Translations under genes and position numbers: made by a program
Part shown: piece after piece, positions 7,524-24,088 of the stretch
How the letters are laid out: the number at the start of each line of letters is the position of its first letter
Position numbering within the stretch: position 1 is the stretch's first letter
The notes under the pieces: model-generated
The model's input: the letters and a program-made list of their open reading frames with translations, nothing else
What the model was told of the DNA's origin: nothing
Database searches by the model: none
NCBI GenBank assembly: GCA_019637335.1
Contig: JAHBVV010000033.1
Location: 1-64,000 of the forward strand
Direction of reading: 5' to 3'
From: Candidatus Hydrogenedentota bacterium
Lineage (GTDB): Bacteria > Hydrogenedentota > Hydrogenedentia > Hydrogenedentales > JAEUWI01
Length of the DNA stretch: 64,000 nucleotides

Positions 7524-8450
7524 ATGCGTTTTCTATCCCTATTCGCCGCGGCCCTGATGGCCGGCTGCGCCACGACAGGAACCCCCATGATCCAGCCGAA
7601 AGATGCTGTCGCCGTGATCGCCCACCGCGGAGCCAGCGCCTATGCGCCCGAGAACACCCTGGCCGCGTTCGAGCTGGCCGTCGCCATGCACGCGGACTGG
7701 TACGAACTGGACTGCCTGCTGACGCTCGACAACCACGTTATCGTGACCCACGACGGTACGCTCGACCGCTGCACGAACGGCGAGGGCGCCGTGGCGGAGA
7801 AAACGCTGGACCAACTGAAGACCCTGGACGCCGGGAGCTGGTTTGACCCGAAATTCGCGGGCGAACCCATGCCCACGCTGGCGGAGTCGCTGGCGATGGC
7901 GAAGAACCGGATCGGCGTGTATGTGGAGATTAAAAGCGCGGCGGACGACGGCCCGTTGATGGGCCAGCTCTGGGAGGCGGCGCGCGGGCAGGAGACAATG
8001 GATGATGCGCTCGCCGGACAGCTGATCCGCCTGGTGGAAGAAAACGGCAGCCGCAACCTGATGCTGGCACGGCAGGCCATCGCGGATATCCGCGCGGCCC
8101 GGATGGAGCCCCAGGTGGTGATTCAGTCCTTCTCGCCGGTCATCTGTCTGGTGGCGCGCGCCGAGGCGCCGGATATCCGCACCGAGTACCTCGGCAGCTA
8201 CGACGCGGAGAAGCCGGAAGCCTGGGATCGCTTCATCGAATGGGGCATGCTCATCGGCGTCGAGGGCTTCAACGTCAGTCACCATTCGATCAACCCAGAG
8301 CGCCTGGCCTTCTTCCACAACGCGGGCAAGAGCGTGGCCGTCTGGACGGTTGACAAGGAGGACGACATGCGCCGCTACATCGGCTGGGGCGTGAACGCGA
8401 TCATCACGAACCGCCCGGACGTCCTGCGGTCGGTGCTGGCGGGCGGCTGA
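7524..8450 (+). CDS. Glycerophosphodiester phosphodiesterase, lipoprotein
   Basis: The 308-residue product begins with a lipoprotein signal (LMAGC, lipidated Cys15). It continues with the GDPD domain: IAHRG at 32-36 with catalytic His34 and Arg35, the metal-binding Glu43-Asn44 in PENTLAAF, and HDGTLDRCTNG. It hydrolyses glycerophosphodiesters from phospholipid turnover to glycerol 3-phosphate and an alcohol, probably at the outer membrane. GGAG lies six bases before the ATG, which also exposes the signal peptide; an upstream in-frame extension has neither. It is a single-gene unit convergent with the ABC transporter genes. Confidence 0.88.
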   Translation: MRFLSLFAAALMAGCATTGTPMIQPKDAVAVIAHRGASAYAPENTLAAFELAVAMHADWYELDCLLTLDNHVIVTHDGTLDRCTNGEGAVAEKTLDQLKTLDAGSWFDPKFAGEPMPTLAESLAMAKNRIGVYVEIKSAADDGPLMGQLWEAARGQETMDDALAGQLIRLVEENGSRNLMLARQAIADIRAARMEPQVVIQSFSPVICLVARAEAPDIRTEYLGSYDAEKPEAWDRFIEWGMLIGVEGFNVSHHSINPERLAFFHNAGKSVAVWTVDKEDDMRRYIGWGVNAIITNRPDVLRSVLAGG

Positions 8451-12317: not shown

Positions 12318-13550
12318 ATGATTCAGCGGAATTTAATCCATAGCATCCGCGAGGCTATGACCGATACACCCGTCATCCTCGTCAACGGAGCGCGCCAAAC
12401 CGGCAAGAGCACCCTCGTACAGGCCTGTATCCAGGACCTGAACGGCGCCTCGTATCAAACCCTCGACGACGCCACCGTGCTCGCGGCGGCCCAAAAGGAC
12501 CCGGCGGGCTTCCTTTCGGGCTTTTCGGGTACCGTCGTGCTGGACGAGATCCAGCGCGCGCCCGATCTCTTCCCCGCCATTAAGCTCTCGGTCGACCGCG
12601 ACCGGCGGCCCGGACGCTTTGTGCTCACGGGCTCGGCGAATGTGTTGATGCTCCCCCGCGTGAGCGAGTCGCTGGCGGGACGGATGGAGGTGCTGACGCT
12701 GTGGCCCTTTTCCGCGGGCGAGCGGGCGGGCCAAACCGAGGGTTTTCTAAAGACCCTCATGGACCCCGCCCCCAAGTTCGCCGTCCAGGAGACACCCGGA
12801 CGCGCCGCGCTCCTGCAACGGGTGATCGACGGTGGCTACCCGGAGGCGGTCGCCCGTGCTTCGGCGCGCCGACGCGATGCGTGGTACGGGGCCTACATCA
12901 CGACCATTCTCCAGCGCGACGTGCGCGATCTGGCGAACATCGAGCAATTGGCGAGCCTGCCGCGCCTCCTTCAGCTACTGGCGGCGCGCGCCACAAGCCT
13001 CGCGAATTACTCGGAGATTGCGCGCGCCTTAAAAATGCCTCAGTCCACGCTGAAGCGCTACATGACGCTGCTGGAGATGACCTATCTGGTCCAGTTCGTG
13101 CCGCCGTGGTCGCAAAACCTCGGCAAGCGCCTGGTCAAATCGCCCAAGCTCGTCCTGTGCGACACCGGACTCATGGCCTACCTCCTCGGCATCGACGGCG
13201 CCGGCGCGATTCCCGATATGGCGCTCGGCGCGCTCGTGGAAAACTATGTGGCCATGGAGCTCCGGAAGCAACTGAGCTGGCATACCTCCCGCATGGAGCT
13301 CTTCCACTTCCGCGAGCGCACGGGGAAAGAGGTGGATTTCGTACTGGAGACGCCCCGGGGCCAGATCGCGGGCATTGAAGTCAAGGCGTCCAGCACCGTC
13401 GGCGCCCACGACTTCAAGCACCTGAACTTCCTTCAGGATCAGCTCGGCGATCGCTTCCAGATCGGGGTGGTCCTCTACCTCGGCGACAGCCCCGTGAAAT
13501 TCGGCGACCGGATGCACGCCCTGCCCCTGAACTGCCTCTGGAATGAGTAA
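12318..13550 (+). CDS. AAA+ ATPase with DUF4143 (COG1373 family)
   Basis: The 410-residue protein has an N-terminal P-loop (GARQTGKST, K30), a Walker B VVLDEIQ (D76-E77) and the LTGSAN sensor motif. A C-terminal DUF4143 domain follows, with RDVRDLANIEQL and a late ERTGKEVDF..IAGIEVKAS segment that looks like a decayed PD-(D/E)XK nuclease core (E-V-D...E-V-K). These proteins are widespread and patchily distributed; their function is unknown. The gene stands alone, with its own AT-rich promoter and matching palindromes before and after it, suggesting a self-contained unit acquired by transfer. Confidence 0.85.
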   Translation: MIQRNLIHSIREAMTDTPVILVNGARQTGKSTLVQACIQDLNGASYQTLDDATVLAAAQKDPAGFLSGFSGTVVLDEIQRAPDLFPAIKLSVDRDRRPGRFVLTGSANVLMLPRVSESLAGRMEVLTLWPFSAGERAGQTEGFLKTLMDPAPKFAVQETPGRAALLQRVIDGGYPEAVARASARRRDAWYGAYITTILQRDVRDLANIEQLASLPRLLQLLAARATSLANYSEIARALKMPQSTLKRYMTLLEMTYLVQFVPPWSQNLGKRLVKSPKLVLCDTGLMAYLLGIDGAGAIPDMALGALVENYVAMELRKQLSWHTSRMELFHFRERTGKEVDFVLETPRGQIAGIEVKASSTVGAHDFKHLNFLQDQLGDRFQIGVVLYLGDSPVKFGDRMHALPLNCLWNE

Positions 13551-13625: not shown

Positions 13626-15482
13626 CTATCCAAGCCCCCGGAGCGCCTCACACTTCGCCAGCAGCCGACGGCCATACCGCTGCGTGCCGTCGTACGGGTT
13701 CTCAACCGCCCGCCGGGCCGCCGCCTCGACCGTGTCGTTCAGGATCCCGGTCTGCTCGATCGCGTTCATCGCGTACATGCCGGTAATTCGGTTGGGATTG
13801 TCCACCAGCGCCGCAAGGCGCGGTAGGTGCTCGGCAGCCTCCCCCGCCTGGCACAGCGCGAGATGCCCCGCCACCTGAACCGCCGGCACGGCGTCTTCCG
13901 CCAGCGCATGCAGGGCGTCGGCGTGCTCAACGGCGCGCAGGCTACCCATCCAGGTGGCGGCGTAATAGCGAACCGCCGGATCCGCATCGGACAACGCAGC
14001 GCGCAGGGCCGGCCGGTCATTCCGCTCACCCGCCTCTATCGCCGCAATGATGCCCGGAATACGTTCCGCCATCCCCGGCTGCCGCATCGCAGCGTACTTG
14101 CTCCCATACTCCCGCCCCAGGTCCTCCAGTATCGGCTCGGGTAGCAGCCCGCCGTCACGGGTCTCCACCATCCACCGGTAAAGCCGCTCGCGTTGCTCGG
14201 CGAGAACCGGCGCATGGCCGGGATCGCCGGCCAGGTTGCTTGTCTCGTGGGGGTCCGCCTCGAGATCGTAGAGCTCCTCGGGCGCGCGGCGCGGCGCGAA
14301 GATGGCGTCCTGCAGGGGCGTGAGCGCCTCCAGCGCGTGCAGTTCACGCAAGCGCTGAAGAATGGCCTTCCCGTCCTTGTACTGGCTGCGCTGCAAATGC
14401 GGCCGGTGCGCGTGAAAGTTGCGAATATACTTGTAGCGAGCGGTGCGCACAGACCGGATACAGTCGATGGTCTCGTCGCAGCGGTCGCGCGCGCTCACCA
14501 GATACGGTCGCTCCGCATAGTCCGGCGCAAAAAGATCTGCGCCCTGCAGATGCCCCGGCGCGGGGATGCCCGCAACCGCAAGCGACAGCGGTACCAGGTC
14601 GATGTGCAGCGCGAGGTCCCGCCGTACGGTCCCCGCCAGACGCCCATCCGGAAACCGGACGATCATCGGAATACGCAGGCCGTCTTCGTACAGAAATTGC
14701 TTGCCACGCGCATGCGATATGCCATGGTCCGTGATGAAAACGATAAGCGTATTCTCGTAAACGCCCGCATCCTTCAACGACTGCACAACCGCCCCCACTT
14801 CCCGGTCAACGCGTTCCCAGCTCGCCAGGTACGCCGCCCAGTCCTCCCGCATCAGCGGATCGTCGGGATAATACGGCGGCAACGTGAAATCATTATGTTC
14901 AATCTTGCCGCCCCGCCACTTGCCGCCGCTGAGCTGGATCTGCGCAAAGAAAGGCGCGCCCGCCGGCGCATCGCGCCAGTCCGCCCCATCGTAGGGCGCA
15001 CCGGACGTAATGAAATTGTAGTCGGTCTTCCCCGGTTTATCCGCTTCCGGACCCGCGCCGTTGCACGTGTAGTAACCCGCCGCGCGAAACAGATCACTCA
15101 CCAGCGGCGTCGCCTCGGGCAACGCATAGCTCGGGTAGTAATCCGGATTGCCCCCAGCCTTATCGCCCTCGTTCTGGCTCCGGTGATTATGGCTGCCGAT
15201 CGTGGTCTGATACATCCCGGTGGCCAGCGCGGATCGCGCCGGAGAACACACGGGACACGATATGATCGCGCTGTCAAAACGCACGCCCTCCCCCGCAAGC
15301 GCATCGAGATGCGGCGTCTTTACCGCGGCCTCCCCATAGCACCCAAGGTGCGGCGACGCATCCTCCGCGATAATCCACAGCACATTGGGTCGTCCGGCCA
15401 CCCGCTGCGCCGCCCCGCTCCCCGCCGCCGCCATCGCGCTCGCGCCAAACGCCGCGCGCTGAAGAAAATCTCGCCGGTTCAT
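13626..15482 (-). CDS. Tat-exported sulfatase with C-terminal helical-repeat extension
   Basis: The 618-residue protein starts with a Tat signal (NRRDFLQRAAFGASAMAAAG). The sulfatase domain begins RPNVLWIIAEDASPHLGCYG. The modification motif is C79-S-P-A-R83, where Cys79 would become formylglycine, so it is a Cys-type sulfatase needing an FGE-like activator. FITDHGISHARGK holds further metal and active-site residues. The last ~110 residues look like HEAT-type helices (ALSDADPAVRYYAATWMG). It should cleave sulfate esters in the periplasm; the substrate is not readable. The divergent gene upstream starts 180 bases away. Confidence 0.9.
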   Translation of the reverse strand: MNRRDFLQRAAFGASAMAAAGSGAAQRVAGRPNVLWIIAEDASPHLGCYGEAAVKTPHLDALAGEGVRFDSAIISCPVCSPARSALATGMYQTTIGSHNHRSQNEGDKAGGNPDYYPSYALPEATPLVSDLFRAAGYYTCNGAGPEADKPGKTDYNFITSGAPYDGADWRDAPAGAPFFAQIQLSGGKWRGGKIEHNDFTLPPYYPDDPLMREDWAAYLASWERVDREVGAVVQSLKDAGVYENTLIVFITDHGISHARGKQFLYEDGLRIPMIVRFPDGRLAGTVRRDLALHIDLVPLSLAVAGIPAPGHLQGADLFAPDYAERPYLVSARDRCDETIDCIRSVRTARYKYIRNFHAHRPHLQRSQYKDGKAILQRLRELHALEALTPLQDAIFAPRRAPEELYDLEADPHETSNLAGDPGHAPVLAEQRERLYRWMVETRDGGLLPEPILEDLGREYGSKYAAMRQPGMAERIPGIIAAIEAGERNDRPALRAALSDADPAVRYYAATWMGSLRAVEHADALHALAEDAVPAVQVAGHLALCQAGEAAEHLPRLAALVDNPNRITGMYAMNAIEQTGILNDTVEAAARRAVENPYDGTQRYGRRLLAKCEALRGLG

Positions 15483-15661: not shown

Positions 15662-16807
15662 ATGGACCACCCCCAAGTCCAACTCCAGGACATCCCGCCA
15701 GGCCAGGTCCGCGCGTGGTTCGCCAGCGATGTGGTCGACGCCCTCGCGCGCCTCGAATGCCCGACCGCGCCCGGAGCCGATCCGCCCCTGCTGGCGGTCT
15801 CCTGGCCGCATGCCTCCGACACCGACCGCGCCATCGCCCACATCACCCGCGCACTCGCGGGACTCGCCCTCGCGCGCTGGCCATCCTGGTATCGCGAAGA
15901 CGCCCCTTTCCCAAGTGCAACGACCCCCGATGAGGACGCGCGCGCAATCGAACGGCTCGGCGCGATCATCCCCGATCTCAACCCCGTCTGGGTCCGGCGC
16001 GCCATCCGACATTGCCGGAGCGGAGAACGGCCGGTCGTCGTCGGCCTGCCGCACGCCGTACAGGTACGGCAGCTTATGCGGGCGCTCGGCGAACCCGATC
16101 TCGTGCTCATGCTCGCGCTCGACGATCCAGACACCCCGCCGGCCAGCCTGTTGTGCTTCGCACGCGTGGCCGCATGGTTCGCCGGCGAATCGGGCGCGCG
16201 CGTCGCCGCCTTTGTGCCCGCGGCCTGCCGAGAAGACGCCGCACTCGACGCCATCACCTACGGCGCGGTGTACCTGGACGGCGCCGCGGATCCGCATTCA
16301 CGCAACCAATCGCCGCGCACAAGTACAATCGCGCCAGGAACCCCTCCCCCCGAAAAAGGAGCGGCCCGGGAACCTGCGAGCCTGGCCCCACGCGCCGCGC
16401 GATCCCGGAGGCGGCGCCACGACGAGCCCCTGCGCCTCGTGCGCCCGCCGATCATCGGTCGCCCCCATCCCGCCAGCCCGGGCGAGCAGTTGCTGGCGCA
16501 ATTCATCGCGCGGGACGACGAATTGAGGCCGCTCTTCACCTTCAACCAGCCGGTCGAAGCCGCCCATGGCGAGACCTTCGTGGTGGACCTCCTCTGGGCA
16601 GCCGGACGCCTCACGGTTGAGGTGGACGGCTATACGTGGCATAGTGGTCCCCATGCGTTCTCCGCCGACCGCTACCGGGACTACCGGCTGCTGTGTGGCG
16701 GCTACCGCACGCTGCGCCTGCCCCACGACGAGGTGCTGGACGATCCGGCGCTGCAACTGGAGAAAATACGCGACGCCGTTCGCGCGATAGTGAAGGAGAG
16801 AGTGTAA
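15662..16807 (+). CDS. DUF559/Vsr-like endonuclease-fold protein, first gene of a DNA-processing cassette
   Basis: The last ~115 residues of this 381-residue protein resemble DUF559 and very-short-patch-repair-like nucleases. D309 lies in FVVDLLW, E320-V-D322-G in the next strand, and H327 follows, with a closing GYRTLRLPHDEVLDDP segment. This matches the metal-binding core of the restriction-endonuclease-like fold. Residues 1-230 contain an alpha/beta-looking domain I do not recognise, followed by a basic, proline-rich linker. It runs into two further genes with gaps of two and four bases, so the three form one operon. A good ribosome site (AAGGAGGGG) lies 28 bases before the ATG, separated by a GGGCC/GGCCC hairpin. 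No alternative in-frame start lies closer. Confidence 0.65.
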   Translation: MDHPQVQLQDIPPGQVRAWFASDVVDALARLECPTAPGADPPLLAVSWPHASDTDRAIAHITRALAGLALARWPSWYREDAPFPSATTPDEDARAIERLGAIIPDLNPVWVRRAIRHCRSGERPVVVGLPHAVQVRQLMRALGEPDLVLMLALDDPDTPPASLLCFARVAAWFAGESGARVAAFVPAACREDAALDAITYGAVYLDGAADPHSRNQSPRTSTIAPGTPPPEKGAAREPASLAPRAARSRRRRHDEPLRLVRPPIIGRPHPASPGEQLLAQFIARDDELRPLFTFNQPVEAAHGETFVVDLLWAAGRLTVEVDGYTWHSGPHAFSADRYRDYRLLCGGYRTLRLPHDEVLDDPALQLEKIRDAVRAIVKERV

Positions 16808-16809
16808 CC

Positions 16810-17469
16810 ATGGGCGATGGGATTTCCCAGGTATTGGTTTCCTTGATTTGGAACTTGCTCTTCACCGGCGACGAGCCGATGGTATCGAAGGCAAAGCCAA
16901 AAATGGATAAGAAGAAGCTGATACCGCTACTCGACGCAGGGCTGGTTGTCCTGGAGAGACGGGGCCGAGCGAGTCACATCGTCCTGACCGAACGCGCCTG
17001 GCAATGGGCCGAAGACAATCTTGACGCGGAGTTCAGCCCACGCGCCAACGCGACTCCCGCGCTGAAAGGTTTGCTCCAACGCCTGAAACACTACCTGAAG
17101 ACCACCGGCACGCCCCTCGCCGAAGTACTGGTCGCCGTCGAACCCGAAGCCCCCGCATCCCCCGCCGATATACCCGCATCAGCCCCAGCGGAACCGCAAC
17201 CCCGCCCCACCATCGACGACGCCATCCGAGAGGCCTACCTCGCCCTCTCCGGCGGGCGGTGGGACACCCGCGTCCGCCTGGCGGACCTGCGCGATCGCCT
17301 GGCCGCGTACCCGCGCGCCGATCTGGATAACGCCCTGTTGCGGATGCAAACGGCGGGCCGCCTCGTGCTCTACCGGCTGGATGACCCGCAGGATACCTTC
17401 GACGCGGACCGCGCCGCGGCCCTCTATCTCGGCAGCGACCCGCGGCACCTCGTCTACATGAAAGGCTGA
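16810..17469 (+). CDS. Winged-helix-like protein, second gene of the cassette
   Basis: The 219-residue protein has no family I can name. Residues 30-66 (DKKKLIPLLDAGLVVLERRGRASHIVLTERAWQWA) read like a winged-helix unit with a beta-wing. A Pro/Ala linker (about 115-135) precedes a second such unit (TIDDAIREAYLAL..., NALLRMQTAGRLVLYRLDD). Two winged helices joined by a linker suggest DNA binding or an adaptor for the ATPase encoded four bases downstream. GGAGAG lies about nine bases before the ATG. An in-frame ATG at codon 24 is an alternative. Function beyond DNA binding is not inferable. Confidence 0.55.
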   Translation: MGDGISQVLVSLIWNLLFTGDEPMVSKAKPKMDKKKLIPLLDAGLVVLERRGRASHIVLTERAWQWAEDNLDAEFSPRANATPALKGLLQRLKHYLKTTGTPLAEVLVAVEPEAPASPADIPASAPAEPQPRPTIDDAIREAYLALSGGRWDTRVRLADLRDRLAAYPRADLDNALLRMQTAGRLVLYRLDDPQDTFDADRAAALYLGSDPRHLVYMKG

Positions 17470-17473
17470 TACC

Positions 17474-20400
17474 ATGGGGGAACTCGACGCGCTCCGTATG
17501 GCAGACTTCAACTGGGTTGTGCACCGGGAAGTCGTCTGGGTCGACAATGTACCCGACGTGCCCGGACTGCACGGGGACGTCTCCGACGCCATCATTGCAG
17601 CCGCGCGATCCATGGACGGCCCGAGGCCCGCGCTCGGACGCATGCTGCTCGGTCCGGCGGGCATCGGCAAGACACACCTCCTCGCCATCCTCCGGCAGCG
17701 CGCAACCGCGGAATCGATGAATTTCGTGATGGCGGACTTGACCGACGTTCGCGATTTCTTCGAAACAATCCTCCTCAGCTTCGTGCTTTCCTTCCAGCAG
17801 CCCATCGCCGGTGGCCATACGCAACTGAACGCCATCCTGCGGAGCGTGATCGCGCGACTCAGCACCACGGTGGACGCGGATGACTATGTCCGGCTGCTCG
17901 GCAAGCAGCCGGTCGACGCCTTCAAAACGCCGATCAAGGACATTCTCAAGAACCTCCAGCGAAAAGACCCCACCGGAACCGCGCGCCACAGCGATGTGGT
18001 GCGTGCGGCGGTGCTCCTCCACGCCCGGGACTACGAGGTAAACAGCATCGGCTCCACGTGGCTTCAGGGCCTCGAAATCGACGACGAAGCCCGGCGCCAG
18101 TTCGGCTTTGCCGCCCCCCGCCAGAAACCCTCCGACATCGTGCTGGGGCTCGCCTGGCTGGCCTCGTTTCGCGGCCCGACCATCATCGCAATCGACCAGC
18201 TCGACCCCATCGTCGCCTACAACCGGCAGGCCGCCCGCGCCGAACGCACGCGCGAAGACGATGAATCCGCCGAACTCGCCAAGAAAATCCTCAATGACCT
18301 CTGCAACGGGCTCGGAAGCCTCTACGCCACAACCGTACGAGCACTCCCCGTGGTCACCTGCCTCGAAGGCAGCCTGGAAACACTCAAAGAATACGGCCTC
18401 CAGAGCAACATGGACCGCTTCGAACCCGAGGAGTCGCTGGCCCCCCTCACGGATCGCGAAACCGCCGAAGCCCTCGTGCGCGGACGCCTCGATCCCGCAT
18501 TCGCCGCCGCCGGCTTCGCGCCCCCCTACCCCACCTGGCCCTTCGCCCCCGGATTCTTCGAAGGCGCGGTAGGCCGCGCCCCGCGCGAACTCCTCAAACG
18601 CTGCGACGCGCATTGCCGCCAGTGCCTCCAACGCGGCGCCGTCACCGAACTCGATTCCTACAACGGGGAGGCCGCCGCCGCCGCGCCCGCCGTCACAACC
18701 GCCGCCGCCAGTTCCCTCGACGCCCGTTTCGAGGACTTGCGCAGCCAGGCCAAAACGCGCAAACTCATGGATGAGCGCTGGGAGGACGATCAGCTCGCCG
18801 GACTCATGATGACCGCCGCAATATGCCTCGTGAAGGAGTCCCCCGCCGACGACGCCTTCGATGTCGTGGTCGACAGCGATTTCCCGGGAAGGCACAGCTT
18901 CATGCCGCTGCACGCCCGCATCCGCAAGATCGAACTGGCCACCGGCGCGGAGCGCCACTATTGCATCCGCGCGCTGGAAAAAATGCACCCGAACGCCTAC
19001 ATCGCCCGGCTCCGCGCCGCCATGACCAGCGCGGGCATCGACCGTAAACTGGACTTCCGACACCTCGTCATTTTTCGCGCAAATCCCGCGCCGCACGGCG
19101 AAAAGACCGACCAGCTCACCCGGGACTTCCTCGCCCGCGGCGGCGTGATGGTCGCGCCGAAACCCGCCGAGATCGCAACCCTCTGGGCGCTGCAACAGCT
19201 GGCTGCGGAAGGCCCCGACGGCTTCGACGCCTGGCTCGCCGCCCGGCAGCCCGTCCACCAGCTCCCCATGATGCAGCACGCGCGCCTCGTGAAGTCGGCG
19301 GCGCCCGAGGCCTCCGAGACGCCCCGACCCGCACCACCGGCGGCACAGTCCCCGGAACAGCAGGCCCTGCCGCTCACCGAGGAGCCAGCGCCGCCCGCCG
19401 ATCCCGAAATACCGGCGGATACAACGGCCCCCATTGCCGCCCCCCATCCGGAGCCCGTGCTCGACACGCCGCCCCCGGCCCCGCAGCAAGCCGCGACGGC
19501 GCCCGTTCCCGCAGGCGCATCCGCCGACGCCGATCTCCCGGTCGGGAGCCGCGTAATCGGTGGCGAGCCCCGGGGCGATGCCGTTACGCTCCCGCTGCGC
19601 GAACTGCGCAAGCACATCGCGATCTTCGCCGGGGCCGGATCGGGAAAGACCGTCCTCGTCAAGCGAATTGTCGAAGAGGCCGCGCTCCTGGGCGTCCCGG
19701 CCATCGTCATCGACACCGCGAACGACCTGGCCCAATTCGGCGATCCGTGGCCAGCACCGCCCGACGCCTGGGGAAGCGAGGACGTCGAGAAGGCCCAACG
19801 CTTTTTCGATGTCACGGAAACCGTGCTATGGACCCCCGGCCTCGAACGCGGCAACCCGCTCCGCCTGGAACCCCTCCCCGATCTCGCCGCTATGGCGAAC
19901 GATCCGGATGAGCTGGAGGACGCCATCGCCATGGCGCGAGAAGCCCTCCAGGGGATCGTCGCGCCCACCAGCAGCGAAACCGCCCGAAACCGCCTCGGCA
20001 TCCTCACCGCCGCCCTCCGCTTCTTCGCCGAGCACGGCGGCGGCGGCTCGCTGGAGGATTTCGTCGCCCTACTGGACGATCTGCCCGACGGTGCCGATGG
20101 AGGCATCGGCGACGCGCGAAAGCACGCCGGAAAAATGGCCGACGCCCTCCGCAGCGCCATGCAGCTCGACCCCCTCCTGAGCAGCAGCGGCGAATCGCTC
20201 GATCCCGTCGCCCTGCTGGGCCTGAACGGCGGCCGAGCCCGAACGCGCATCTCCGTGATCAATTTCACCGGCCTCCCCGCCCTCGATCAGCAACAACAGT
20301 TCCTCAACCGCCTCTTCATGGCGCTCTTCTCCTGGATCAAGAAGCATCCCGCCACCGGGGAGGCGCCCCTGCGCGGACTGCTCGTGCTCGACGAGGCCCG

Positions 20401-20785
20401 GGATTTCATTCCCGCCGTCTCCAGATCGGCCTGCCGCGACAGCTTCATGCGGCTGGCCGCACAGGCCCGAAAATACGGCCTCGGCCTCGTGATCGCTACA
20501 CAGGCCCCCAAGGAAATCCACAATGGGGTCGTCTCGAACTGCTCGACCAGCTTCTACGGCAAAGGCAGCTCCCCGGCGGTCATCAACGCCATCCGCGAAC
20601 TCCTCCAGAGCAAAGGCGGACACGGCAACGATGTCGCGCGCCTCGCCCAGGGCCGCTTCTACCTCCACAACGCCGACGTAACCCGAACGCCCATAAAAAT
20701 CGGCGCCAGCCTCTGCCTCTCCTGGCACCGCGAACCGCTCGATCCCGAGGCCATCGCCGAACGCGCGCAGGCCAGCCGCGCCTGA
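17474..20785 (+). CDS. Double-ATPase fusion: N-terminal AAA/STAND-like module joined to a HerA/FtsK-like module
   Basis: This 1103-residue protein has two complete P-loop modules. The first has GPAGIGKT at 60-67 and TIIAIDQLD with D241, and resembles AAA/STAND ATPases. After an uncharacterised middle region and a Pro/Ala-rich linker (about 605-690) comes a HerA/FtsK-like module. It has GAGSGKT at 720-726, LLVLDEARDF with D973-E974, and LGLVIATQAPKEI, the HerA sensor region. HerA proteins are DNA-translocating hexamers that usually pair with a nuclease such as NurA. Here the partner would be the DUF559-like nuclease two genes upstream. ATPase activity and DNA pumping are inferred from motifs; a role in phage defence or repair is inferred from the gene set. 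Confidence 0.75.
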   Translation: MGELDALRMADFNWVVHREVVWVDNVPDVPGLHGDVSDAIIAAARSMDGPRPALGRMLLGPAGIGKTHLLAILRQRATAESMNFVMADLTDVRDFFETILLSFVLSFQQPIAGGHTQLNAILRSVIARLSTTVDADDYVRLLGKQPVDAFKTPIKDILKNLQRKDPTGTARHSDVVRAAVLLHARDYEVNSIGSTWLQGLEIDDEARRQFGFAAPRQKPSDIVLGLAWLASFRGPTIIAIDQLDPIVAYNRQAARAERTREDDESAELAKKILNDLCNGLGSLYATTVRALPVVTCLEGSLETLKEYGLQSNMDRFEPEESLAPLTDRETAEALVRGRLDPAFAAAGFAPPYPTWPFAPGFFEGAVGRAPRELLKRCDAHCRQCLQRGAVTELDSYNGEAAAAAPAVTTAAASSLDARFEDLRSQAKTRKLMDERWEDDQLAGLMMTAAICLVKESPADDAFDVVVDSDFPGRHSFMPLHARIRKIELATGAERHYCIRALEKMHPNAYIARLRAAMTSAGIDRKLDFRHLVIFRANPAPHGEKTDQLTRDFLARGGVMVAPKPAEIATLWALQQLAAEGPDGFDAWLAARQPVHQLPMMQHARLVKSAAPEASETPRPAPPAAQSPEQQALPLTEEPAPPADPEIPADTTAPIAAPHPEPVLDTPPPAPQQAATAPVPAGASADADLPVGSRVIGGEPRGDAVTLPLRELRKHIAIFAGAGSGKTVLVKRIVEEAALLGVPAIVIDTANDLAQFGDPWPAPPDAWGSEDVEKAQRFFDVTETVLWTPGLERGNPLRLEPLPDLAAMANDPDELEDAIAMAREALQGIVAPTSSETARNRLGILTAALRFFAEHGGGGSLEDFVALLDDLPDGADGGIGDARKHAGKMADALRSAMQLDPLLSSSGESLDPVALLGLNGGRARTRISVINFTGLPALDQQQQFLNRLFMALFSWIKKHPATGEAPLRGLLVLDEARDFIPAVSRSACRDSFMRLAAQARKYGLGLVIATQAPKEIHNGVVSNCSTSFYGKGSSPAVINAIRELLQSKGGHGNDVARLAQGRFYLHNADVTRTPIKIGASLCLSWHREPLDPEAIAERAQASRA

Positions 20786-20938: not shown

Positions 20939-21544
20939 ATGTTGGATGCACATGTACTTGTCCTGAACAAGTCGTGGATCGCCATCAACGTGGCGACCGC
21001 GCGACGTGCCCTGGCGCTGTTGTACCAGGGCCACGCCCGCGTTGTGCATCCGCGGGACTATTCCCTCTACTCCTTCGAGGCCTGGTGCACGCATTCGCGC
21101 AGGGAATACATGAAATACCCCGACGCGAACGTCGTGCATACCCCGAAGCAGCCAGTCGTCCTCCCGGAAGTCATCCTACTGACCGTCTTTAACGGCTTCA
21201 TCCGCCACGAAATCCGCTTCTCCCGCACCAACATCTTCACGCGCGATCAGCACCAGTGCCAGTACTGCGGCGCCCAGCCGGAAAAAAGCGATCTGACCCT
21301 CGATCACGTCATCCCCCGCTCCCGCGGCGGTATCGACTCGTGGGAAAACCTCGTCCTCGCCTGCGCGCGCTGCAACGTGAAAAAGAGCAACCGCACGCCA
21401 GAGGAGGCCAACATGCGCCTGCTCAAACAGCCCGCCGCGCCGCGCTGGCTACCGCGCTTCGGCATCTCCGTGCGCAAGCAAGAGCTGCACAGCTGGCAGC
21501 GTTTCGTCGACACCTCCTGCTGGGTGACCGACGTCGCGCGCTGA
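20939..21544 (+). CDS. HNH endonuclease family protein
   Basis: The 201-residue protein has an N-terminal domain (VLVLNKSWIAINVATARRAL) typical of a small HNH family common in planctomycete-like and cyanobacterial genomes. An HNH core follows: CQYCGA, LTLDHVIPRSRGG, WENLVLACARCNVKKSNR. The two CxxC pairs should bind a structural zinc, and the DH of LDHV should bind the catalytic metal. GGAGA precedes the ATG. Its own strong promoter and wide distribution suggest a housekeeping role rather than membership of the neighbouring cassette, but the function of this family is not established. Confidence 0.85.
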   Translation: MLDAHVLVLNKSWIAINVATARRALALLYQGHARVVHPRDYSLYSFEAWCTHSRREYMKYPDANVVHTPKQPVVLPEVILLTVFNGFIRHEIRFSRTNIFTRDQHQCQYCGAQPEKSDLTLDHVIPRSRGGIDSWENLVLACARCNVKKSNRTPEEANMRLLKQPAAPRWLPRFGISVRKQELHSWQRFVDTSCWVTDVAR

Positions 21545-21604
21545 TCGCCGCCTTGGCGCGCCCGCGCGCGCCACGCTATACTTGGGGCGCGAGAACGCCT
21601 CCCC

Positions 21605-24088
21605 ATGCCCCCTGCGATACCCACACAGCCGTCCCAGACTGATCTCTTTGCCGAGGTCGTCCTCCCGATCCCGCTGGACCGCACCTTCTGCTACGCGGTG
21701 CCCCCGTCCCTGCGTGATCGGGTCGCCCCCGGCATGCGCGCCGTCGTGCCCGTGCTGAACCGCATCGACACCGGCTTCATCGTGGCGATCAGCCCCACGC
21801 CCGCCGTGGAAAAGGTCAAGAGTATCATCGACCTCCCGGACGAGACCCCCGTCTTCTCCCGGGAAATGCTCGCCCTGTGCCGATGGATCGCCGATTACTA
21901 TTGCTGTTCCTGGGGCGAAGCCCTCCAATGCGCTGTCCCGCGCGGACTCAAAATCGGCACGCGCATGCGCTACCGGCTCGTCCCCGAAATGCTCGACGCC
22001 GGACGCTTCACCGATCGCCAGCGCGCCGTGATCGCCGCACTCTACAAGCGCGGCCCCCTCACCGAGGGACAGCTCGCGGGCGACGCCGGACGCCAGGCGC
22101 TCAGCAACACCCTCAACGCCCTCATCCGCCGCGGCGTCGTGGTCGCCGAGCCGGTCCTGCAGGACGCCGGCGTCTCCATCCGCACCGAGTGGTACGCGGA
22201 ACTGAATACCGCCGCCCTGCTCGACAACGACGCCCTGGCCCAGCTCCAGCGGCGCGCGCCGAAACAGGCCGCGATCTACCTCGACCTCCTCCACACGGGC
22301 GGCGCCCTGGCCGTTTCCGCGCTGAGCGAAAAACACCAGACCACGCTGGCGACCGCCCGTTCCCTGGCGCAAAAGGGCCTCGTGCGGCTCGCCGAACGCG
22401 AGCTCTTCCGCCGCCCCGACACCGGCGCGCCCGGGCACGCGGCGGAAAAGTTCCCGCTGAACGAGGAACAGCAGGCCGCCTACGAAGCGATCGCCGCCTC
22501 GCTCGAAGCCCGCACCTTCCAAACCTACCTCCTCCGCGGCATCACCGGCTCCGGAAAAACCGAAGTCTATCTCCAGGCCATCGAGCGCACGCTGGAGCTC
22601 GGGCGGGACGCCATCGTGCTCGTGCCCGAAATCTCCCTCACCCCACAGACCGTCGGGCGATTCGTCGCCCGCTTCAAGCAGGACATCGCCGTGCTCCACA
22701 GCGGCCTGAGCCTCGGCGAACGCTACGACGAGTGGCGGCGCGCGCAGCGCGGCGAAGTCCGCATCGTGGTCGGCGCGCGCTCCGCCGTGTTCGCGCCCCT
22801 GCCCAACCTGGGCATGATCATCGTGGACGAGGAGCACGACAGCTCCTACAAGCAGGGCGAGTCGCCCCGCTACCACGCGCGCGACGTCGCCATCATGCGC
22901 GCCCACAACAACCACGCCGTGTGCGTCCTCGGTTCCGCCACCCCCGCGATCGAGTCCTATCACAACGCGGAGATCGGCAAATCCATCCGCCTCGACCTCA
23001 CAAAACGCGCCACGAACGCGGCCCTGCCGTCGGTCAAGGTGCTCGACATGCGGATCGAAGCCAAAGAAAACGCCGGCCAGGTCATGCTCTCGCGCACGCT
23101 GGAGGACGCCGTAAACGCGCGCGTCGATGCGCGGGAACAGGTCATCCTCCTGCTGAACCGGCGGGGCTTCGCCCCCTTCGTCCTCTGCCCCCAGTGCGGA
23201 TGGGTGGCCGAGTGCGCGGACTGCAACGTCAGCATGACCTACCACAGCGCCGGGGCCCTGCTCCGCTGCCACTACTGCAACGCGACCCGGCCCAAGCCCG
23301 AAATCTGCGACAAGTGTTACTTCAACCCGCTGATCTACCTTGGCGCGGGCACGCAGAAAGTCGAGGATTACCTCATGCACGCCTTTCCAAAGGCCCGGGT
23401 CGCGCGCATGGACGCCGATACGACCTCCGGTAAGGGCGGGCACGCCAAAATTCTGGGGCGCTTTGCGAGTGGCGAGATCGATATCCTCATCGGAACCCAG
23501 ATGCTCGCGAAAGGCCACGATTTCCCCGGCGTCACCCTCGTCGGCGTCATCAACGCGGACACCGGACTCTGCATGCCCGACTTCCGCGCCGCCGAGCAGG
23601 CCTTCCAGCTGCTCACCCAGGTCGCGGGGCGCGCCGGGCGCGGCGATCAGCCGGGCGAGGTGATCATACAAAGTTTCCGCCCCAACCACTACGCCGTTCG
23701 CGCCGCGGCGGATCACGACTACCACGCCTTCTTCGCGCAGGAAATCGCCCACCGGGAGGGCGCGCAATACCCGCCATTCCGCCGCCTCGTGAACTTCGCC
23801 GTCGAAAGCGAAGACCAGGAGCTGGCCGAGCGCGGCATGTTCGCCCTGGGGCGCATCGTCCGCGAACTCATCCGCTCCGGCGGCTTCCAGGGCATGGAAG
23901 TCATGGGCCCCGCCCCGGCCGCCGTGAAAAAAGTTAAGAAACACTACCGCTGGCATCTGGGCGTGCTGTCCCGCAGCGCGAAAAAACTCAACGCGCTCAC
24001 CCGCCACAGCCGCGATCAGTTCCTCGAACAGCACAAGGGCCGCAAGGTGCTGCTCAAGGTCGACCTCGATCCCTACGGCATCTTCTGA
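21605..24088 (+). CDS. priA: Primosomal protein N' (PriA helicase)
   Basis: The 827-residue protein is a full-length PriA, the 3'-to-5' helicase that reloads the replisome at stalled forks. It has the N-terminal 3'-DNA-binding domain (FAEVVLPIPLDRTFCYAVP), Walker A GITGSGKT at 312-319 and Walker B DEEH at 408-411. The paired zinc-binding cysteines CPQC, CADC, CHYC and CDKC are embedded in the helicase lobe. The GTQMLAKGHDFPGVTLVG motif and late QVAGRAGRG motif VI are intact. It follows the HNH gene by 60 bases and ends at a strong hairpin. Confidence 0.97.
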   Translation: MPPAIPTQPSQTDLFAEVVLPIPLDRTFCYAVPPSLRDRVAPGMRAVVPVLNRIDTGFIVAISPTPAVEKVKSIIDLPDETPVFSREMLALCRWIADYYCCSWGEALQCAVPRGLKIGTRMRYRLVPEMLDAGRFTDRQRAVIAALYKRGPLTEGQLAGDAGRQALSNTLNALIRRGVVVAEPVLQDAGVSIRTEWYAELNTAALLDNDALAQLQRRAPKQAAIYLDLLHTGGALAVSALSEKHQTTLATARSLAQKGLVRLAERELFRRPDTGAPGHAAEKFPLNEEQQAAYEAIAASLEARTFQTYLLRGITGSGKTEVYLQAIERTLELGRDAIVLVPEISLTPQTVGRFVARFKQDIAVLHSGLSLGERYDEWRRAQRGEVRIVVGARSAVFAPLPNLGMIIVDEEHDSSYKQGESPRYHARDVAIMRAHNNHAVCVLGSATPAIESYHNAEIGKSIRLDLTKRATNAALPSVKVLDMRIEAKENAGQVMLSRTLEDAVNARVDAREQVILLLNRRGFAPFVLCPQCGWVAECADCNVSMTYHSAGALLRCHYCNATRPKPEICDKCYFNPLIYLGAGTQKVEDYLMHAFPKARVARMDADTTSGKGGHAKILGRFASGEIDILIGTQMLAKGHDFPGVTLVGVINADTGLCMPDFRAAEQAFQLLTQVAGRAGRGDQPGEVIIQSFRPNHYAVRAAADHDYHAFFAQEIAHREGAQYPPFRRLVNFAVESEDQELAERGMFALGRIVRELIRSGGFQGMEVMGPAPAAVKKVKKHYRWHLGVLSRSAKKLNALTRHSRDQFLEQHKGRKVLLKVDLDPYGIF

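Follow-up and report, generated by a model that had tools for sequence, protein, structure and literature searches.

The three genes at positions 15662-20785 of the Candidatus Hydrogenedentota window (the whole 64,000-nucleotide stretch of DNA that was analysed) are interpreted here, with somewhat better than even confidence, as a HerA/FtsK-capture type of operon for defence against invaders, in which the products of the second and third genes, P2 and P3, are predicted to form a recognition-and-motor core, and the product of the first gene, P1, to serve as a nuclease effector. The strongest sign of defence is the exchange of effectors around this fixed core.

Organisation of the cassette

The genes and domains of the cassette are as follows.

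15662-16807, plus strand: P1, putative effector nuclease of 381 aa, with a conserved N-terminal domain and a C-terminal DUF559/Vsr-like endonuclease
16454-16780, plus strand: DUF559/Vsr-like nuclease domain of P1 (Pfam match; D309, E320-x-D322, H327, D336, R337, R339, D340)
16793-16800, plus strand: Shine-Dalgarno-like AAGGAGAG, 5' of the P2 start, read from the sequence
16810-17469, plus strand: P2, 219 aa, two winged-helix-like units; obligate partner of P3
17474-20785, plus strand: P3, AAA-middle-HerA fusion of 1103 aa; predicted motor of the core
17474-18685, plus strand: STAND/ORC-type AAA ATPase domain of P3 (Walker A GPAGIGKTH, Walker B AIDQLD)
18686-19291, plus strand: middle alpha/beta domain of P3 (residues 405-606; predicted secondary structure)
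19292-19525, plus strand: disordered Pro/Ala-rich linker of P3 (low pLDDT, residues 609-680)
19526-20782, plus strand: HerA/FtsK-type DNA-translocase domain of P3 (Walker A GAGSGKT, Walker B DE 973-974, R999)

All three genes lie on the plus strand, with gaps of 2 bases between P1 and P2 and 4 bases between P2 and P3, and these coordinates and strands agree with the three-gene operon proposed in the sequence-only reading of this DNA. Long antisense open reading frames over the cassette (e.g. 17033-19798 on the minus strand) were dismissed as high-GC artefacts.

The P3 double ATPase

The N-terminus of P3 gave profile matches of the AAA_16/AAA_22/NACHT/nSTAND type, with AAA_16 recognised in 28 of 28 homologues, as well as one weak ORC-CDC6-like match; these families share one broad clade, to which the domain is assigned. 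The C-terminus was assigned to HerA/DUF87 by profile and matched solved HerA by Foldseek with an E-value of 1e-12, which bears out the AAA plus HerA/FtsK-like fusion of the sequence-only reading. The closest solved structures of this domain were HerA proteins, the archaeal repair HerA included, and TrwB was also matched. In 89 of 89 copies both domains retain, unchanged, the principal residues of their ATPase motifs.

Two features of P3 were absent from that reading: a Gln in the Walker B motif of the AAA domain, and the middle domain at residues 405-606. The motif, D241-Q242-x-D244 (window positions 18194-18205), carries Gln at the position of the catalytic Glu in each of the 89 copies. The same replacement is found in laboratory ATP-trap mutants, and its presence in the P3 motif suggests that the AAA domain hydrolyses ATP slowly or not at all. 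The middle domain, of about 200 residues, has the predicted element order alpha-beta-beta-beta-alpha-beta and is devoid of a PD-(D/E)xK motif; this order resembles that of an endonuclease fold, and the domain is possibly an inactive restriction endonuclease (REase). Profile searches with the middle domain gave no convincing family match, a match to 6rfm (E 0.0015) being taken as chance, and its alignment with the P1 nuclease by hhalign gave no match.

The P2 winged-helix protein

The AF2 model of P2 (mean pLDDT 86) contains two winged-helix (wHTH)-like units, at approximately residues 7-69 and 135-217, and the Foldseek matches of P2 are nearly all winged helices, with probabilities up to 0.99 and E-values of 0.06 or worse. 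Since these individual E-values are weak, the fold was called from the consistency of the matches together with the predicted topology, and on this basis the two winged-helix-like units read earlier from the sequence are retained. The best PDB match of the P2 profile was AspA, a plasmid centromere-binding wHTH protein (E 0.001), although the wHTH matches of P2 are generic; matches to calmodulin were regarded as spurious. No PADLOC, NCBIfam or Pfam model was found to name P2 or full-length P3.

The P1 nuclease

Residues 305-373 of P1 match DUF559 (PF04480) with 24.4 bits, above the cut-off of 20.6, while the match to MTES_1575 REase, at 27 bits, falls under the cut-off of that family. The residues D309, E320, D322, H327, D336, R337, R339 and D340 are unchanged in 38 of 38 P1 copies, and the DUF559/Vsr-like core noted earlier around D309, E320 and D322 stands. 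The P1 profile also matched PDB entry 3hrl, an endonuclease-like protein (E 7.5e-12), in agreement with the endonuclease-like character that had been proposed for P1. A profile search for NurA gave no match in P1 or P2.

Full-length P1 was present in 10 of the 27 genomes examined, in each case adjoining P2-P3 and never elsewhere (the surveyed locus in eight genomes and a second copy in two). The spacing between P1 and P2 was -4 in 19 of 35 cases.

Constancy and distribution of the P2-P3 pair

Automatic gene calling placed P2 immediately 5' of P3 in 87 of 93 loci, and 67 of these 87 pairs overlap by 4 bases. Among the remaining six loci, an HMM search recovered P2 in L019 and L027, contig ends truncate L032 and L036, and P3 is broken in L091 and L092. 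P2 and P3 are thus an obligate pair, P2 standing immediately 5' of P3 wherever both genes are readable (about 90 loci from Hydrogenedentota, Methylobacterium relatives and Actinomycetota). Among the matches listed, full-length homologues occur in Methylobacterium and its relatives and broadly in Actinomycetota, and a 68%-identical homologue occurs in a genome of the same genus (record JAJRPE010000337.1).

Within the phylum, P3 was detected in 3 of 68 Hydrogenedentota genomes, all of one genus, and in three other genera the presence of the cassette was likewise patchy (27 of 59, 16 of 60 and 13 of 16 genomes). Some genomes carry two or three copies of P2-P3, and three full-length loci are on records classed as plasmids, while a search of phage records and viral contigs gave no match. 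Such patchy, sometimes multi-copy presence is what accessory systems spread by horizontal transfer typically show.

The variable partner slot

The neighbourhoods were sampled unevenly over genera, with gene models from a simple in-house caller, and the defence genes beside P2-P3 are given as raw counts at the surveyed loci. P1 is the commonest partner, being the gene that precedes P2 in 37 of 89 loci, the window included. The conserved co-occurrence of all three genes, as expected from the sequence-only reading, was indeed seen across three phyla. However, over half of the loci lack P1, and other immune modules often stand in its place, so the three genes do not form the fixed set that had been assumed. 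As for whether the ATPase would routinely occur without the other two genes, it does not with respect to P2, which is always present, and it does with respect to P1. The exchange of partners had not been anticipated.

The second partner type is a TIR protein (PF13676) with a ParA-like protein (PDC-M28B), found in the slot at 21 loci, a count that overstates its breadth since 16 of them come from one genus. A DUF4365 protein with a second protein, together the PADLOC candidate system PDC-M02A/B, occupies the slot at four loci; PDC-M02B also occurs apart from P2-P3 in three genomes. An AIPR protein (AbiU of PADLOC) lies 3' of P3 at three loci and at one more that also carries pPIWI_RE. A complete pPIWI_RE X/Y/Z island is the partner at one locus, in Saccharothrix (L038, 2237-14940), where the island, P2, P3 (as two overlapping open reading frames) and AIPR form one same-direction array. 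The alternative partners share the direction of the pair and are closely spaced. Other genes were seen at single loci, namely those of nSTAND-like/TPR, CBS and TerD-AIM24 proteins and a pair of MutS-domain proteins, and these may be neighbours rather than parts. The MutS pair, from the Actinokineospora group, consists of two adjoining MutS domain V proteins 5' of P2-P3 (L063, 4773-7675, minus strand). Two genomes combine several partners: one has P2-P3 copies with nSTAND-like, DUF559 and AIPR partners (G077; L026, L050, L051), and the other has copies with TerD-like and DUF559 partners (G094; L046, L052).

Seventeen loci, many of them mycobacterial, have no recognisable partner. Comparison of one mycobacterial locus (L096) with a close relative (L027) showed a loss of 944 bases that takes away most of P1 and spares P2-P3, the deletion site being at 7684-7752 of reverse-complemented L096 against 8293-9237 of L027. 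This loss and the partnerless mycobacterial pairs suggest that P2-P3 may function by itself or with no cutting step.

On the P3 tree (FastTree, to be read with caution for long branches) the partner types cluster by clade, DUF559 is found on either side of the midpoint root, and the partner changes state at least 18 times if 'none' is included among the states. DUF559 is taken here as the widespread and possibly ancestral partner, after which several replacements and losses may have followed.

Flanking genes and insertion sites

Two flanking genes of the window were considered as further components and rejected. The HNH endonuclease gene at 20939-21544 is followed by PriA (20939-24088 for both), and it was excluded because this HNH-PriA pair is conserved in same-family genomes apart from the cassette or without it, and is thus independent of it. 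A DUF4143/AAA_14 ATPase gene 5' of the cassette (12318-13550) was excluded from the core; a sulfatase gene (13626-15482) intervenes, and the ATPase gene was not seen at distant loci. At the same-genus locus L015 a DUF4143/AAA_14 ATPase gene lies 45 bases from P1, and the right flank differs from that of the window.

In Tsukamurella and Rhodococcus the cassette is located between the ribosomal genes rplN and rpsQ, and in Kitasatospora it abuts rpsQ. The loci at this site (L013, 7288-16697; L046, 6495-12894; L022, up to 13475) carry DUF559, TerD-like and DUF559 partners, respectively, and the location, with its differing partners, looks like a recurrent insertion site.

Comparison with known systems

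Among described systems, the cassette comes closest to the ORC/CDC6 type of HerA/FtsK capture systems, a computationally predicted group proposed to intercept invading DNA (Rakesh, Aravind & Krishnan 2024, PMC10853773). As described there, they consist of an ORC/CDC6 ATPase followed by an inactive REase, an active REase, a HerA/FtsK motor and wHTH, and a subset has a separate wHTH protein with two to four units. The cassette shares with them the HerA/FtsK translocase with intact motifs in P3 and, probably, the clade of the P3 AAA domain, and the two wHTH-like units of P2 fit the separate multi-wHTH protein. In contrast, the paper places a wHTH after the inactive REase, where none was seen in P3, and of its two REase families one is common to AbiJ, while DUF559/Vsr is absent from its main text. 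No description of exchanges of pPIWI_RE, PDC-M02, AIPR and TIR-ParA around one fixed P2-P3 pair was found in it. Because the inactive REase is called from element order only, the wHTH was not seen and DUF559 is unmatched, the cassette is regarded as a variant that may work alike and not as a confirmed member. No description of the P2-P3 core or of its effector swapping was found in the literature, and the supplementary lists of PMC10853773 may already include a version of it.

Other HerA-bearing systems are more distant. HerA-SIR2 and HerA-DUF4297 also pair a HerA ATPase with an effector enzyme, and their structures (8wod, 8wiv, 8zit) are among the matches of the P3 HerA domain. However, their HerA is a separate protein of about 550-670 aa, whereas that of P3 is fused to an AAA domain and the wHTH protein P2 is obligatory; P3 scored 40 and 33 bits with the NCBIfam anti-phage HerA models, whose cut-offs are 850 and 800, and no SIR2 or DUF4297 domain was found among the partner genes scanned. 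DndFGH (DptFGH), as described in PMC10853773, shares an ATPase, a multi-wHTH protein, a HerA-bearing protein and nuclease activity with the cassette, but its domain arrangement differs, and PADLOC gave no Dnd/Dpt match for P1, P2 or P3. The best PADLOC match of P3 was mad8 of MADS, with 81 bits across the HerA region, and the likeness is confined to the HerA-like domain; PADLOC gave neither a mad match nor any other named system for P1 or P2. HerA-NurA likewise couples a HerA motor to a nuclease partner, and differs in nuclease family, the AAA fusion, the wHTH partner and the patchy distribution of the cassette. By the features tested, the cassette is not HerA-SIR2, HerA-DUF4297, MADS or HerA-NurA.

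Proposed function

The immune modules in the partner slot, which are immunity genes in their own right placed in one operon with the core, support, by association, the defence role suggested in the sequence-only reading. The winged helices of P2 and the ORC/STAND-type AAA domain of P3 would bind or load on invading DNA, and the AAA domain may act as an ATP-binding switch, in which binding, not rapid hydrolysis, gates the complex. The HerA domain, with its intact motifs, would form a ring and pump DNA. This ring might bring the DNA to the DUF559 nuclease or activate the nuclease, so that P1 would cut; the earlier suggestion that the HerA module drives the P1 nuclease is kept as plausible. Elsewhere the same core would be coupled to TIR and ParA-like proteins, DUF4365/PDC-M02, AIPR/AbiU or pPIWI_RE. 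The exchange of effectors suggests that recognition and activation are conserved while the output varies. A wider claim, that P2-P3 is a general immune sensor-motor to which unrelated effectors are coupled by exchange of the adjacent cassette, giving a single trigger and different weapons per species, is quite possible, at slightly less than even confidence.

It is rather unlikely that P2-P3 alone is the full defence unit, for example a motor trapping plasmid or phage DNA, and that its neighbours are separate systems of the same island. The solo copies in mycobacteria are in line with such a unit, as are the presence of PDC-M02B apart from the pair and the diversity of the partners, several of which are modelled as stand-alone modules. 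Yet the overlap or direct contact of P1 and many partner genes with P2 suggests translational coupling, full-length P1 was seen only beside P2-P3, and the partner type follows the P3 tree. A mobile-element module, engaged in plasmid maintenance or conjugation-related segregation and not in immunity, is improbable. It could draw on AspA as the best PDB match of P2, on the FtsK/TrwB-like motor with its Foldseek match to TrwB, and on the three plasmid-classed loci, but the wHTH matches are generic, no recurrent transfer or partition gene lies beside the core, and the partner slot is occupied by immune effectors.

A DNA-repair or chromosome-processing system, in which P1 would take the place of NurA, has the precedent of HerA-NurA and the archaeal repair HerA among the closest solved structures of P3. 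It is nevertheless very improbable, given that 65 of the 68 genomes of the phylum lack the cassette and its presence inside genera is patchy, that the partner is exchanged for TIR, AIPR or pPIWI_RE, and that P1 is a DUF559 protein and not NurA.

Implications

With the reading of the cassette as a defence operon, an unnamed gene set becomes a defined and widely spread module, made of a constant DNA-binding and motor pair and an interchangeable effector slot. If this is true, several candidate defence modules (PDC-M02, PDC-M28, AbiU and pPIWI_RE variants) would have a common activation mechanism, and the two-copy genomes with different effectors allow their direct comparison.
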